A DNA stretch of 64,000 bases from Parapedobacter soli (GTDB lineage Bacteria; Bacteroidota; Bacteroidia; Sphingobacteriales; Sphingobacteriaceae), in assembly GCF_025460835.1 (NCBI RefSeq), contig NZ_JAMXAY010000006.1, forward strand, positions 62,001 through 126,000, read 5' to 3'. Below are positions 3,391-11,533 of the stretch, one piece after another; within the stretch, counting starts at the first letter, position 1; each line of letters starts with the position of its first letter. The notes under the pieces are model-generated. The model did no database searches and was not told the DNA's origin. It saw only the letters and a program-made list of their open reading frames with translations. Position numbers and translations under genes: made by a program.

Positions 3391-4236
3391 TTTGCCTGTT
3401 TTCGGCAAATTAGCTAAGTTTCACCTAGCACACCGTTTTTCTAAGGCAGGTGAGAGATCGCTAACTTCCCTATTTCTGGCAAATTAGCTAAGTTTCACCT
3501 AGCATAGCGTTTTTCTAAGGCAGGAGAGAGATAGCTAACTTGCCTATTTCTGGCACATTAGCTAAGTTTCACCTAGCATAGCGTTTTTCTAAGGCAGGAG
3601 AGAGATAGCTAACTTGCCTATTTCTGGCAAATTAGCTAAGTTTCACCTAGCACACCGTTTTTCTAAGGCAGGTGAGAGATCGCTAACTTGCCTATTTCTG
3701 GCAAATTAGCTAAGTTTCACCTAGCACACCGTTTTTCTAAGGCAGGTGAGAGATCGCTAACTTGCCTATTTCTGGCAAATTAGCTAAGTTTCACCTAGCA
3801 CACCGTTTTTCTAAGGCAGGTGAGAGATCGCTAACTTGCCTATTTCTGGCAAATTAGCTAAGTTTCACCTAGCACACCGTTTTTCTAAGGCAGGTGAGAG
3901 ATCGCTAACTTGCCTATTTCTGGCAAATTAGCTAAGTTTCACCTAGCACACCGTTTTTCTAAGGCAGGTGAGAGATCGCTAACTTGCCTATTTCTGGCAA
4001 ATTAGCTAAGTTTCACCTAGCACACCGTTTTTCTAAGGCAGGTGAGAGATCGCTAACTTGCCTATTTCTGGCAAATTAGCTAAGTTTCACCTAGCATACC
4101 GTTTTTCTAAGGCAGGTGAGAGATCGCTAACTTGCCTATTTCTGGCAAATTAGCTAAGTTTCACCTAGCATACCGTTTTTCTAAGGCAGGTGAGAGATCG
4201 CTAACTTGCCTATTTCTGGCAAATTAGCTAAGTTTG
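3391..4236. repeat. 74-bp tandem repeat array, 11 full units plus partial ends
   Basis: Units start at 3404, 3478, 3552, 3626, 3700, 3774, 3848, 3922, 3996, 4070 and 4144, exactly 74 bases apart; a partial unit at 4218 stops after 18 bases, and a degenerate lead-in begins near 3391. Units 4 to 9 look identical. Units 2 and 3 share a variant set (loop bases, GGTG to GGAG, ATCGC to ATAGC) and units 10 and 11 share one change. Within each unit, TCACCT pairs with AGGTGA and GGCAA with TTGCC, giving an imperfect hairpin of roughly 18 of 23 pairs. A second short hairpin (TTGCC/GGCAA, 7-base loop) spans each unit junction. Because 74 is not a multiple of three, the array cannot code for a repeated protein. 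There is no spacer variation, so it is not CRISPR. Confidence 0.97.
4206..4236 (+). promoter_or_regulatory. Candidate promoter formed at the end of the repeat array
   Basis: TTG at 4206-4208 and TAAGTTTG at 4229-4236 are separated by 20 bases, matching the Bacteroidota -33/-7 layout. The -7 box lies 17 bases before the ATG of the dipeptidase. In every full repeat unit the same position reads TAAGTTTC; only the last, truncated unit has the consensus G, because the repeat breaks off at that base. Confidence 0.55.
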
Positions 4237-7416: not shown

Positions 7417-7638
7417 ATGTACTGGACACTAGAATTAGCCTCACATTTAGAAGATGCACCCTGGCCGGCAACGAAAGACGAGCTGATTGACTACGCTATC
7501 CGTTCTGGCGCACCGGTTGAAGTTATTGAAAACCTGCAAGCCCTGGAGGACGACGGTGAGCCCTATGAAAATATAGAAGAGATTTGGCCAGACTATCCTA
7601 CCAAGGATGACTTCTTCTTCAACGAAGATGAATACTAA
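7417..7638 (+). CDS. DUF2795 domain protein, small acidic
   Basis: 73 residues, strongly acidic (ends in DDFFFNEDEY). The sequence MYWTLELASHLEDAPWPATKDELIDYAIRSGAP is the hallmark of a short DUF2795 protein that is very conserved in Bacteroidota. Function unknown; the KDELIDYA..SGAP region resembles a small helical domain found in other DUF2795 proteins. It has its own promoter and is followed at once by a strong terminator, so it is a single-gene transcript. There is no signal peptide, so it should be cytosolic. Confidence 0.88.
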   Translation: MYWTLELASHLEDAPWPATKDELIDYAIRSGAPVEVIENLQALEDDGEPYENIEEIWPDYPTKDDFFFNEDEY

Positions 7639-7644
7639 GAGATA

Positions 7645-7683
7645 GCCGCCCCGCACGATGAGTACGGGGCGGTTTTGTTTTCT
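7645..7683 (+). terminator. Rho-independent terminator after the DUF2795 gene
   Basis: An 8-bp GC stem (CCGCCCCG at 7646-7653 with CGGGGCGG at 7665-7672, 11-base loop) is followed by TTTTGTTTT. Confidence 0.9.
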
Positions 7684-7719
7684 CCCCCTTGTTTTAGTAC
7701 CTAAAAAAAGTTTTCTCCC

Positions 7720-7750
7720 TTGCATCTTTCAAAACAAAAACCCATATTTG
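7720..7750 (+). promoter_or_regulatory. Candidate promoter of the trp operon
   Basis: TTG at 7720-7722, 20 bases, then CATATTTG at 7743-7750 (one mismatch to TAnnTTTG). Transcription would begin near 7757, just before the leader peptide at 7764. Confidence 0.55.
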
Positions 7751-7763
7751 CCTCACAACGGAA

Positions 7764-7811
7764 ATGAACGTTACGAAAGGACATATTACCTGGTGGTGGC
7801 ATAGCAATTAA
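7764..7811 (+). CDS. trpL: trp operon leader peptide (MNVTKGHITWWWHSN)
   Basis: A 15-codon reading frame with three consecutive TGG (Trp) codons at 7791-7799 and stop TAA at 7809-7811. It sits between a promoter-like sequence and a strong terminator hairpin directly in front of trpD. Three Trp codons in 15 is the signature of a leader peptide used to sense charged tRNA-Trp: when tryptophan is scarce the ribosome stalls on these codons and changes the folding of the RNA downstream. The peptide itself probably has no function. Confidence 0.88.
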   Translation: MNVTKGHITWWWHSN

Positions 7812-7889
7812 CGCTGTGGCAACCTCCTATTGTAAGTAATAGTTACTGAACTTTATAGCGGCTTGCCCATCATCGGCAGGCCGTTTTTT
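7800..7889 (+). promoter_or_regulatory. trp attenuator: alternative hairpins and terminator
   Basis: Terminator (3:4): CGGCTTGCC at 7859-7867 pairs with GGCAGGCCG at 7875-7883 (one wobble), loop of 7, then six T at 7884-7889. Pause hairpin (1:2): CATAGC at 7800-7805, right after the Trp codons, pairs with GCTGTG at 7813-7818. Antiterminator (2:3): CGCTGT at 7812-7817 pairs with ATAGCG at 7855-7860, which takes the foot of the terminator stem; GGCAA at 7818-7822 with TTGCC at 7863-7867 is another option that would block it more fully. A ribosome held on the Trp codons would cover segment 1 and favour read-through into trpD. Pairings were found by eye, without energy calculation. Confidence 0.85.
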
Positions 7890-7905
7890 ATGGATATTAG
7901 ACGAT

Positions 7906-8892
7906 ATGAAAAAAATACTGGCCCACCTTTTCGAATTCAAAACCTTCACGCGGCGTGAGGCGTATGAGATATTGACCAACATCGCCTCGGGGAAGTATAA
8001 CAACTCCCAAATCGCGGCATTCATGACGGCATACGGCATGCGGAGTATCCGTGTAGAAGAACTGGAAGGCTTCCGTGATGCGATGTACGACCTCTGCCTG
8101 CAACTGGAATTCCCAGGTCACAAGCTCATCGATCTATGCGGTACGGGCGGTGATGGCAAAAACACATTCAACATCTCCACATTGGCCTCTTTTGTAGTGG
8201 CCGGTGCCGGTTACCACGTAGCCAAGCACGGCAACTACGGTGTGTCATCCGGCTGCGGATCTTCCAACGTGATGGAATTCCTCGGCTACCGGTTCACCAA
8301 TGATAAAGACACTATCGACCGTCAATTGGAGCAGGCAAACATCTGCTTCCTCCACGCCCCGTTATTCCACCCAGCTATGAAAACCGTAGCACCCATACGC
8401 CGCGAATTGGGAGTGAAGACATTTTTCAACATGATTGGCCCGTTGGTAAACCCGGCCAACCCGTACTACCAATCCGTTGGGGTATTCAACTTGGAACTTG
8501 CGCGGTTATACGCTTACCTTTACCAGCAAACCGACAAGCAATACACCATTCTCCATGCGCTGGATGGCTACGACGAGGTTTCGCTGACCGGCAATTTCAA
8601 GACCATCAGCAACAAAGGCGAACACATCTACAGCATCGATCAACTGGGATTTACACCCATAGCGGCCGAGCGTATACATGGTGGTGAGACCGTAGAGGAG
8701 GCAGCCAGGATATTTGCATCGGTACTCAATGGGGAAGGCACCACCGAACAGAACAATGTGGTATTGGCCAATGCAGCCATTGCCATACAGACCATCAACC
8801 CCGAAAAGAGTTTTGGTGATTGCTACTACGAGGCAGAAGCGTCGCTGGTGGGGAAGAAAGCCCAAAAAAGTTTTAAAAAATTAATAGCGTAA
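7906..8892 (+). CDS. trpD: Anthranilate phosphoribosyltransferase
   Basis: 328 residues. Joins anthranilate to PRPP in tryptophan synthesis, in the cytosol as a homodimer. The N-terminal helical domain (about 1-65) precedes the PRPP site LCGTGGDGKNTFNIST (GTGGDG at 79-84), then AKHGNYGVSSGCGSSNVMEFLG (anthranilate/PRPP contacts) and RRELGVKTFFNMIGPLVNP. All hallmark residues are in place. It is the first structural gene behind the attenuator, 16 bases after the terminator T-run. The trpG and trpE genes that often precede it, and trpC that often follows it, are missing here. Confidence 0.95.
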   Translation: MKKILAHLFEFKTFTRREAYEILTNIASGKYNNSQIAAFMTAYGMRSIRVEELEGFRDAMYDLCLQLEFPGHKLIDLCGTGGDGKNTFNISTLASFVVAGAGYHVAKHGNYGVSSGCGSSNVMEFLGYRFTNDKDTIDRQLEQANICFLHAPLFHPAMKTVAPIRRELGVKTFFNMIGPLVNPANPYYQSVGVFNLELARLYAYLYQQTDKQYTILHALDGYDEVSLTGNFKTISNKGEHIYSIDQLGFTPIAAERIHGGETVEEAARIFASVLNGEGTTEQNNVVLANAAIAIQTINPEKSFGDCYYEAEASLVGKKAQKSFKKLIA

Positions 8893-8943: not shown

Positions 8944-9570
8944 ATGAAACCGAAAATAAAAATATGCGGCTTGAAGCACCCCGATAATATCCGGGAAGTG
9001 ATTGCTTTGGGTCCGGATTACGTAGGTTTCATCTGCTACCCCGGTTCCAAACGGTACATCGGCCGACTGGATGCCGGGTGGGTCGCTAAACTGAACGGGG
9101 TGAAGAAGACGGGTGTTTTCGTCAACGCAGCGATCCATGAGGTGAAAGCCGCGATCCAACAATACAATTTCCAGGCAGTGCAACTGCATGGTGCGGAAAC
9201 GCCGGCATATTGTGCGGAGCTCGCGGATCTCGGCGTGGAAATCATCAAAGCCTTCGGCATCAGTGAGCAGTTCGAGTGGGCAACATTAACGGCCTACGAC
9301 CCCGTAGCACACCATTACCTTTTTGACACACAAAGCAGCCAATACGGCGGCACGGGCAAGCGTTTCGACTGGAAGCTGCTTGCCGGGTACACGGGCAATA
9401 AACATTTTTTCCTGAGCGGCGGTATCAGTGCCAAAAATATCGCAGACGCGCTAAGTATTAACGATAGACGTCTTTATGGATTGGATTTAAACTCCCGGTT
9501 CGAGACCGCCCCCGGCGTCAAAGACATTATATTATTGAAAAATACGCTACAGACCATCAGCAATGAGTAA
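8944..9570 (+). CDS. trpF: Phosphoribosylanthranilate isomerase
   Basis: 208 residues, a single TIM barrel. Catalyses the Amadori rearrangement of phosphoribosylanthranilate. The catalytic Cys lies in [10 protein letters not shown] (Cys8) and the catalytic Asp in [20 protein letters not shown] (about residue 128); the phosphate loop [10 protein letters not shown] follows. It starts 51 bases after trpD; that gap contains a short palindrome (AGGTCG/CGACCT) and no trace of trpC. Its last 8 bases overlap the start of trpB, so translation of the two is probably coupled. Confidence 0.95.
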
Positions 9571-10747
9571 GTATCAAGTAAACGACAATGGTTATTACGG
9601 CGATTTCGGTGGAGCCTACATCCCCGAAATGCTGTATCCCAACGTGGAGGAGCTACGGCAGCAGTACCTTGCCATCATCCAAAGTGCAGGCTTCCAAGAG
9701 GAATTCGACCAACTATTGCGTGACTACGTGGGGCGGCCATCACCGCTGTACCTCGCCGAGCGCCTGTCAGACCGATATGGCGCCAATGTCTTCTTAAAGC
9801 GGGAGGATCTCAACCATACCGGGGCCCATAAAATAAACAATACCATCGGCCAGATCCTCCTTGCCGAACGGCTTGGAAAAAAGCGCATCATTGCCGAAAC
9901 CGGTGCCGGCCAGCATGGTGTGGCCACCGCCACGGTCTGCGCCCTCAAAGGCCTCCAGTGCGTGGTGTATATGGGCGCGATAGACATCCAGCGGCAAGCT
10001 CCCAATGTAGCCCGGATGAAAATGATGGGTGCGGAGGTGGTGGCAGCCACCTCCGGCAGCAAAACACTCAAAGACGCCACCAATGAGGCCATGCGCGACT
10101 GGATAAACAATCCGGTAGACACGCACTACATCATTGGGTCAGTGGTTGGGCCGCACCCCTACCCGGATATGGTGGCCCGCTTCCAGTCGGTCATATCGGC
10201 CGAAACAAGGAAGCAGCTGCTCGAAAAAACCGGTCGCGAGACACCCGATTATGCCATTGCCTGCGTAGGTGGTGGCAGTAATGCCGCCGGTATGTTCTAC
10301 CATTTCCTGGACTCGCCCGAGGTGAAACTGGTTGCCGTTGAAGCAGCCGGAAAAGGGGTCGAATCCGGCGAATCGGCGGCAACCACAGTACTCGGCCGCG
10401 AGGGCGTACTGCACGGCAGCAGGTCGCTCTTGATGCAGACCGATGATGGGCAGGTGGTAGAACCGTATTCAATCTCGGCCGGACTGGATTACCCGGGCAT
10501 CGGACCGCTGCATGCTTGGCTGCATAAAACAAAACGGGCAACGTATGCCAGCGCCACAGACGACGATGCCATGCAGGCCGGCCTATTGCTCACCCAGCTG
10601 GAAGGCATCATCCCGGCCATAGAAAGTGCCCACGCACTGGCCCAGCTGGAGAAAATGACCTTTGCAGCCAACGACAACGTCGTTGTATGCCTCTCCGGGC
10701 GTGGTGATAAAGATTTGGACAATTACATGAAGTATTTTGGATTTTAG
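9563..10747 (+). CDS. trpB: Tryptophan synthase beta chain
   Basis: 394 residues. PLP-dependent enzyme that condenses indole and serine. The PLP lysine is Lys90 in [10 protein letters not shown]; the phosphate-binding loop is GGGSNAAG and the C-terminal substrate/PLP contact is CLSGRGDKD. The indole tunnel and alpha-chain contact segments ([22 protein letters not shown]) are typical of TrpB1, the form that works in complex with TrpA. Start chosen at ATG 9563, overlapping trpF by 8 bases. The stop TAG abuts the first ATG of trpA. Confidence 0.97.
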
Positions 10748-11533
10748 ATGATGAACCGCATTAAGAACTTATTTGCCAACAAAGGCGACAAACGCATCCT
10801 ATCCATCTATTATACGGCAGGCTACCCGACGCTCAACAGCACGGTTGACATTGCCGAGGCACTCGAAAAAGCAGGGGTCGATTTCCTGGAAATAGGATTC
10901 CCCTACTCCGACCCCGTTGCCGACGGACCCGTCATCCAGCATAGCTCCGAAATGGCCCTGCGCAATGGCATGACACTGGATGTACTCTTCGATCAACTGA
11001 AAGATTTACGCAAGCGGGTGAATATCCCTGTATTTCTGATGGGATACGTGAACCCGGTACTGCAATACGGTGTTGAGAACTTCTGCAAAGCGTGCGCAGC
11101 CGTGGGTGTAGACGGCACAATCATACCCGATTTGCCCATGTATGAGTATGAGGAACAATACCAAACGGTATTTGAAACACATGGATTGAGCAACATCTTT
11201 TTGGTAACACCGCAAACATCCGAGGAACGTATCCGGAAAATCGATAGGTTATCCACCGGATTTATTTACCTACTTTCCTCTTCTGCCACCACGGGCAAGA
11301 ATCTAACGGTTTCGGAAAATACAGAAAGTTATTTTTCCCGCATCCGGGCTATGGAACTCGATAATCCAACGGTAATCGGTTTCGGCATCTCGAACCACGA
11401 TACGTTTGTACATGCCACCGACCATGCCGACGGTGCCATCGTAGGCAGTGCATTCGTGAAGCTGCTGGATGACCCGGAGTATAGCACGAAAATCGCCCCG
11501 TTTATCCAGCAACTCAGTCCATCCGTTCCTTAA
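10748..11533 (+). CDS. trpA: Tryptophan synthase alpha chain
   Basis: 261 residues, TIM barrel; releases indole from indole-3-glycerol phosphate and passes it to TrpB. Catalytic Glu48 (FLEIGFPYSDP) and Asp59 (VADGP) are present; the flexible loop and phosphate site (GFGISNHDT, AIVGSAFVKLL) also match. Two ATG codons in a row follow the trpB stop without any gap; either could be used. It is the last gene of the operon. Its final 20 bases overlap the end of the convergent PepSY-like gene. No terminator is apparent after it, so that gene may supply antisense transcription. Confidence 0.96.
   Translation: MMNRIKNLFANKGDKRILSIYYTAGYPTLNSTVDIAEALEKAGVDFLEIGFPYSDPVADGPVIQHSSEMALRNGMTLDVLFDQLKDLRKRVNIPVFLMGYVNPVLQYGVENFCKACAAVGVDGTIIPDLPMYEYEEQYQTVFETHGLSNIFLVTPQTSEERIRKIDRLSTGFIYLLSSSATTGKNLTVSENTESYFSRIRAMELDNPTVIGFGISNHDTFVHATDHADGAIVGSAFVKLLDDPEYSTKIAPFIQQLSPSVP

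Follow-up and report, generated by a model that had tools for sequence, protein, structure and literature searches.

A predicted ribosome-mediated tryptophan attenuator ahead of trpDFBA in Parapedobacter soli and its relation to Bacteroid-trp RNA

The trp leader of Escherichia coli (RF00513) works through Trp codons and alternative 1:2, 2:3 and 3:4 hairpins, and the leader described here shares this logic. Bacteroid-trp RNA (RF01692), which likewise lies upstream of trp genes in Bacteroidota, appears in Table 1 of PMC2864571 and is described as similar to the E. coli trp leader. In the same phylum, a Bacteroid-trp RNA has been reported upstream of the trp operon of Flavobacterium psychrophilum (PMC6414381), and clues of leader-peptide attenuation have been described for that species (PMC9723704). 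Transcripts of F. johnsoniae are reported to carry a 5' leader of 33 nt on average (PMC6847099). In Sinorhizobium meliloti, whose trp genes are split as they are here, the ATG of the Trp leader is reported as the point where the transcript starts (PMC7298713). Our searches of the open-licence PMC literature found no report of trp attenuators in Sphingobacteriaceae and none in which a split trp pathway has attenuators on both halves.

In this study, we analyzed the leader ahead of trpD in a 64 kb stretch of Parapedobacter soli DNA (the window), focusing on its anatomy, conservation, covariation, predicted folding and relatives. The results indicate that a ribosome-mediated transcription attenuator very probably controls trpDFBA, with a separate attenuator of similar design on trpEGC, and that it is a divergent relative of Bacteroid-trp.

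The trpD leader, its promoter and its conservation

The controlled unit lies on the forward strand and comprises trpD, its first gene (7906-8892; PF00591 and PF02885), trpF (8944-9570; PF00697), trpB (9563-10747; PF00291, named from position and family, PALP being broader) and trpA (10748-11533; PF00290). The window's TrpD shares 88% identity with the TrpD proteins of P. pyrenivorans and P. defluvii. Ahead of trpD on the same strand, direct reading gives a leader peptide frame, MNVTKGHITWWWHSN, at 7764-7811 (ATG at 7764, 15 codons, stop codon TAA at 7809-7811), in which three Trp codons at 7791-7799, conserved in relatives, are the predicted sites of ribosome stalling. A preliminary description had proposed a complete classical attenuator with a 15-codon leader containing three TGG codons directly in front of trpD; the leader proved to be correct base for base, the terminator ends at 7889, 16 nt before the trpD ATG at 7906, and the term complete classical attenuator is true of the anatomy.

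Named genome records were scanned for trpD, and the best 80 of 131 candidate loci, from Parapedobacter, Sphingobacterium, Olivibacter, Pedobacter, Mucilaginibacter, Daejeonella and unclassified bins, were used as the sample. A filter for ATG and WW over 400 nt recovered a leader in 78 of these 80 loci (best 80 of 131); a 79th locus with a leader (L086) has TTG as its start codon, and the contig of the 80th (L043) gives only 183 nt upstream. In the genome of this last locus (G022), a second contig end bears a Trp leader (L110), and the last 65 bases of that end are the first 65 of L043. The conservation in relatives that the preliminary description had asked to see was found, with in-frame leaders having two or three consecutive Trp codons in 79 of the 80 trpD loci (best 80 of 131), and the pause hairpin and the terminator are also kept in the same alignment. 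This short conserved frame with consecutive Trp codons is one of the features that characterize the attenuator class.

The window leader and the 79 relatives' leaders were combined in an alignment, A1, with 80 rows, 78 of them distinct, the rows having been chosen for WW. Three Trp codons are present in 75 of the 80 rows and two in the other five. These natural two-Trp leaders (L031, L050, L054, L081 and L106) read GWW or LWW or have a three-base deletion. The leader is exactly 15 codons long in 66 of the 80 rows, and among these Trp occupies codons 11 and 12 in all 66 and codon 10 in 63. Ahead of the Trp run the peptide sequence drifts and indels, as read from the alignment, come in multiples of three; such drift is what would be expected of an attenuator, and is thus not a separate proof of translation.

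The leader region folds better than all of 200 dinucleotide shuffles (z -3.2), and the leader is the sole short ATG frame (8-30 codons) with WWW when both strands of the 64 kb are considered, none being found in 30 Markov windows. A run of TGG triplets by itself is not rare, with three in the window versus 0.47 expected. Over the whole genome, the pattern ATG-N15-42-TGGTGGTGG gave 79 matches and its reversed control gave 63; among 51 strings out of the 79, 18 rows were in frame and stop-free, the other 28 strings being out of frame by coordinates, and two of the 18 were the trpD and trpE leaders. From the remaining 16 rows 14 stretches were examined, C134:16345 being left out. A stricter terminator filter found nothing in these 14 non-trp stretches and also missed the terminator of the trpE leader, while a looser filter, which detects both trp terminators, returned one weak 7-pair stem 122 nt past the stop codon (L244) and none in the other 13 stretches, in one of which (L252) the frame runs beyond the stretch. 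The WWW pattern by itself is frequent in this genome; once a following terminator is required, the two trp leaders are the only ones to stand out among the stretches examined, the weak stem of L244 aside.

Upstream of the leader lie a gene for a DUF2795 protein (7417-7638; Pfam) and then, by direct reading, a G+C-rich terminator-like hairpin with a T-rich tail (7646-7672), so that the leader very probably starts its own transcript; the hairpin should insulate the leader. The predicted promoter, of Bacteroidota type, is on the forward strand and consists of a -33 element TTG (7720-7722), whose spacing is conserved in leaders, and a conserved -7 box, CATATTTG (7743-7750; TAnnTTTG type with the first T unmatched). 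A box ending in TTTG is found at most 35 nt upstream in 79 of the 80 A1 leaders, as NATATTTG in 64 of those, and of the 79 leaders with a box, 73 have a TTG at 20 nt and five at 19 nt upstream of the -7 octamer. The combined promoter pattern occurs once in the window versus 0.25 expected, and is therefore not significant by itself. On the model of F. psychrophilum, in which this box is reported at -12 to -5 (PMC9723704), the start was placed five bases past the box, which predicts transcription from about 7755 and a 5' UTR of about 9 nt.

Over A1 the predicted 5' UTR is 3-15 nt, and with a permissive box pattern its median is 7 nt for 28 trpD leaders of the family, 3.5 nt for 28 trpE leaders of the family and 8 nt for 17 trpE leaders of other families. 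Because the -33 TTG is found at 19-21 nt in only 8 of the 28 family trpE leaders versus 26 of the 28 family trpD leaders (11 of 17 for trpE in other families), the trpE start sites are less certain. No Shine-Dalgarno-like word was found upstream of the A1 leaders except in L081 (Sphingobacterium sp. FBM7-1, leader at 3848). This is also the only A1 leader without a promoter box; its sequence before the ATG is unlike that of its relatives and its first Trp codon reads GGG, and its promoter may be broken or replaced.

Alternative pairings of the leader RNA

The pause hairpin claimed earlier, formed by segments 1 and 2, is present at 7800-7818 on the forward strand (7800-7805 with 7813-7818), where it was recognized by reading and by covariation: 91.6% of its A1 cells are paired, and over the 78 distinct rows both sides have changed at four of the six pairs. 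The intrinsic terminator (7859-7889, forward strand), which lies between the leader and the first gene as in other members of the attenuator class, consists of the arms CGGCTTGCC (7859-7867) and GGCAGGCCG (7875-7883) and of U6 at 7884-7889; direct reading bore out the nine pairs and six T previously assigned to it. Eight of these pairs, 7860-7867 with 7875-7882, are formed in 99.8% of A1 cells, and a compensated C-G to G-C swap is seen in 14 rows. In pairings 1:2 and 3:4 together, 6 of 14 pairs show change on both sides (41 such cells versus 7.6 in shuffles), and slid versions of these pairings are formed in 31-54% of cells versus 96.3% for the true register. The 5' arm at 7860-7867, belonging to segment 3, is nearly invariant, one C/G swap excepted, whereas the 3' arm has drifted towards G-U partners. 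This asymmetry fits a second partner for segment 3, with the caveat that the letters of the two arms give unequal chances of wobble.

Nascent folding assigns the 5' side of the antiterminator to segment 2, GGCAACCUCCUAU (7818-7830, forward strand), and folding and conservation assign its 3' side to segment 3 (7855-7867, forward strand), of which 7859-7867 doubles as the terminator 5' arm. In this pairing GGCAACC..CUAU (7818-7830) stands against AUAG.GG.UUGCC (7855-7867), and a small hairpin is predicted in the loop at 7835-7847 on the same strand (7835-7839 with 7843-7847). The preliminary description had built the antiterminator from a repeated ATAGC motif overlapping the terminator by only two bases. 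The motif does occur at 7801-7805 and 7855-7859, but the main antiterminator, 7818-7830 with 7855-7867, is longer; the two-base overlap holds only for the GCUGU x AUAGC pairing, whereas the longer antiterminator covers the whole terminator 5' arm. As sole antiterminator the ATAGC pairing was rejected (pairs form in 87.8% of its cells, many of them G-U). Its competition in the window (about 0.60 versus 0.39) is confined to the shortest block and the shortest transcript, and in the folding model this pairing is a competing conformer, kept as an intermediate and not as the main form.

Folding with and without blocked bases, the check proposed in the preliminary description, did not separate the states, as the whole leader to 7889 gave the terminator in every one of them. 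Whole-leader folding being uninformative for this reason, truncated (nascent) transcripts cut at 7867 or 7872 were folded instead, with the ribosome covering 15 nt past the start of the P site (a chosen value). Since at equilibrium the full leader always forms the terminator and only nascent transcripts switch, the choice between the two structures would be kinetic. In the window, stalling at the second or third Trp codon gave pairing of 7863-7867 with segment 2 at a value of at least 0.91, and stalling at the first gave about 0.4 in the shorter transcript and 0.9 in the longer. With the ribosome at the stop codon 7863-7867 is unpaired, the neighbouring 7860-7861 remaining at about 0.5, and in the absence of a ribosome hairpin 1:2 is formed, with values for segment 3 of about 0.05 and 0.2 in the two transcripts.

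When all 80 A1 rows were folded in this way, the median upstream pairing of segment 3 was 0.98 for a stall at the last Trp codon, 0.05 at the stop codon and 0.01 without a ribosome, the window itself having 0.98, 0.30 and 0.19; with shuffled linkers the pairing was still about 0.39. The stalled state was the highest in 77 of the 80 rows. The three non-switching rows are Daejeonella leaders with longer frames containing segment 2, for which a second method that allows segment 2 in the frame gives 0.73-0.81. Against the switch, three Parapedobacter leaders had P >0.5 at the stop codon and four leaders had 0.80-0.93 without a ribosome. None of 50 shuffles reached the value of the window by the first method; by the second, the window had 0.80 versus 0.55 for its shuffles, 10% of which reached 0.80.

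The pairs 7818-7822 with 7863-7867 are formed in 99.2% of A1 cells, but are invariant or changed on one side, and those of 7827-7830 with 7855-7858 (CUAU x AUAG) in 84.7%, with 33 of 78 rows lacking the pair 7827-7858. So conserved a helix adds little covariation of its own (on its four variation measures, 18, 15, 82 and 4 of 500 shuffles do at least as well), and the antiterminator rests on conservation and folding, hardly on covariation. A competing antiterminator to be freed by a stalled ribosome, which the attenuator class also has, is recognizable here; the sharing of segment 3 was read directly and the freeing is predicted.

Relatives of the leader and the other half of the pathway

No Rfam family reached its gathering score in the window; at 7600-7960, RF01692 gave no match even at E 10 and RF00513 was not among the matches up to E 10. 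RF01692 at E up to 0.1 matched 18 of 61 genomes of the family, one of them over the cut-off (the leader of Olivibacter sp. XZL3, 53.7 bits with a cut-off of 49), and at this threshold had no match in the window's copy or in the four other Parapedobacter genomes of the sample. Among eight of the matched loci that were examined, seven lie before trpD and the eighth is at a contig end. The relatives that link the window to RF01692 align with it in A1. The window leader, which the model itself does not match, thus occupies a homologous position via these intermediates, and we class it as a divergent relative of the known Bacteroid-trp RNA.

A covariance model built from A1, R1, scored the window leader at 99.7 bits in its own genome and found nothing else at E <0.1; it also misses the trpE leader and fails as a detector of it. 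Its three weak matches in this genome (E 0.13 to 3.7) were rejected, having no trp gene in their loci; one of them (L119) was read and proved to be unrelated sequence carrying a hairpin with a T run. Among 295 genomes of the class, R1 matched 89 at E up to 0.01. Gene context was inspected for its best 30 places, 29 of which adjoin trp genes: 10 lie before trpD, all in the own family, 19 before trpE (one with trpB between), all in other families, and one is on a short contig without trp genes. RF01692 at E up to 0.01 matched 21 of the 295, 10 over the cut-off; judged by eye, 17 of these 21 are also R1 places, on the same strand, and R1 missed four. From the difference in number of genomes, with the best 30 R1 places inspected, it seems that many relatives escape the Rfam Bacteroid-trp model. 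One place in another family of the class (L180, in G230), matched by both models, has a different gene order, lying before trpB followed by the start of trpE.

The trpE, trpG and trpC genes of P. soli are on another contig, where trpE (L029, G000:C105) is preceded by a Trp-Trp-Trp leader, MITDRFLIGLWWWLDSDSVGLEGTVIHS. This leader has a terminator of its own and a sequence unlike that of the trpD leader, and its predicted 5' UTR is 2 nt. Its segments 2 and 3 pair over nine bases with no mismatch and, unlike those of the trpD leader, are folded together without a ribosome as well, so that it may lack the termination without translation that is predicted for trpD.

At the thresholds used, trpE was found in 35 and trpD in 34 of 41 family genomes searched. 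A WW leader (ATG, TTG or GTG start) lies within 450 nt in 25 of 30 trpE loci and 27 of 30 trpD loci examined, and genomes with both loci examined have Trp-Trp leaders on both halves in 22 of 28 cases. In four of the other six (G019, G020, G045 and G057) the missing leader has W-x-W, G022 is the truncated contig, and in G010 trpE is preceded by single Trp codons and trpD by a terminator that lacks a Trp leader. The trpD locus of G010 (L209), with a terminator-like hairpin but no Trp leader frame found, is perhaps a decayed attenuator. In the stretches examined from 32 family genomes, neither trpG beside trpD nor trpD beside trpE was found.

Folding supports the trpE leaders less strongly than the trpD leaders: 25 of 26 in the family are above 0.5, but their shuffles average 0.43, and outside the family 13 of 17 are above 0.5, with shuffles at 0.46. 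One Parapedobacter trpE leader (L124) is at 0.06, below its own shuffles (0.41), and its terminator call may be wrong.

Proposed mechanism, alternatives and comparison with known systems

From this anatomy we infer the start site, stalling, termination and response to tryptophan as follows. Transcription would start about 9 nt before the leader ATG, and the 15-codon leader would be translated with no Shine-Dalgarno sequence. A shortage of charged tRNA-Trp would stall the ribosome at the three Trp codons, where it would cover segment 1, leaving segment 2 (7818-7830) to pair with segment 3 (7855-7867); this would block the terminator and let RNA polymerase read into trpD. With plentiful tryptophan the ribosome would reach the stop codon and mask the start of segment 2, the terminator would form and transcription would end at about 7889. 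Without translation, hairpin 1:2 would form and the terminator would again win.

It is conceivable that the leader frame and the terminator are real but that the terminator acts constitutively, or under the control of Rho or a protein, and is blind to tryptophan, the WWW frame only tuning translation. The equilibrium folding, with the terminator in every modelled state, agrees with this, but two or three consecutive Trp codons persist in all 80 A1 rows (chosen for WW) while the remaining peptide drifts, they persist in 79 of the 80 trpD loci unselected for WW (best 80 of 131), the competing 2:3 pairing is kept and a similar design of different sequence stands before trpE, and we consider this explanation very improbable. 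T-boxes are, beside TRAP, an alternative type of leader, and TRAP is described as controlling the trp genes of Bacillus. We give next to no credence to a reading of the locus as a T-box, a ligand riboswitch or a TRAP-type protein target in which the WWW frame arose by chance: the leader frame is conserved, no Rfam family appeared in the window at gathering score, and the matches obtained at 7600-7960 up to E 10 include no T-box or riboswitch model.

In addition to a function in cis, there might be an effect in trans of the terminated leader RNA or its peptide on the other trp half or on other genes. In S. meliloti, rnTrpL and peTrpL are reported to act in trans, rnTrpL destabilizing trpDC mRNA (PMC7298713), and in P. 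soli too the pathway is split and termination would yield a leader RNA of about 135 nt. However, the peptide outside the Trp run drifts and both halves have their own leader, which leaves less need for trans action, and such a role appears unlikely. Ribosome-mediated attenuation in cis is retained for trpDFBA as very probable. For the Sphingobacteriaceae as a whole, we think it somewhat probable that the pathway is split into trpEGC and trpDFBA, each with its own attenuator and an almost leaderless transcript, and that two separately tuned Trp sensors, unlike in sequence, set the ratio of the halves.

Unlike Bacteroid-trp at the class places examined outside the family, which lie ahead of trpE, the window leader stands before trpD in a split pathway. 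It differs from the E. coli trp leader in having no Shine-Dalgarno-like word, a predicted 5' UTR of about 9 nt and trpD as the first gene. For F. psychrophilum one trp operon is reported, and split halves are not described in the accounts available (PMC6414381, PMC9723704). In S. meliloti, only trpE(G) of three trp operons is reported to be attenuated (PMC7298713), whereas the split pathway described here has Trp leaders on both halves. The locus contributes a well-supported attenuator to a class in which ribosomes reportedly do not recognise Shine-Dalgarno sequences (PMC9976891). Switches of this kind are known; what goes beyond the known systems is its Sphingobacteriaceae branch and the presence of Trp leaders on both split halves of the pathway.
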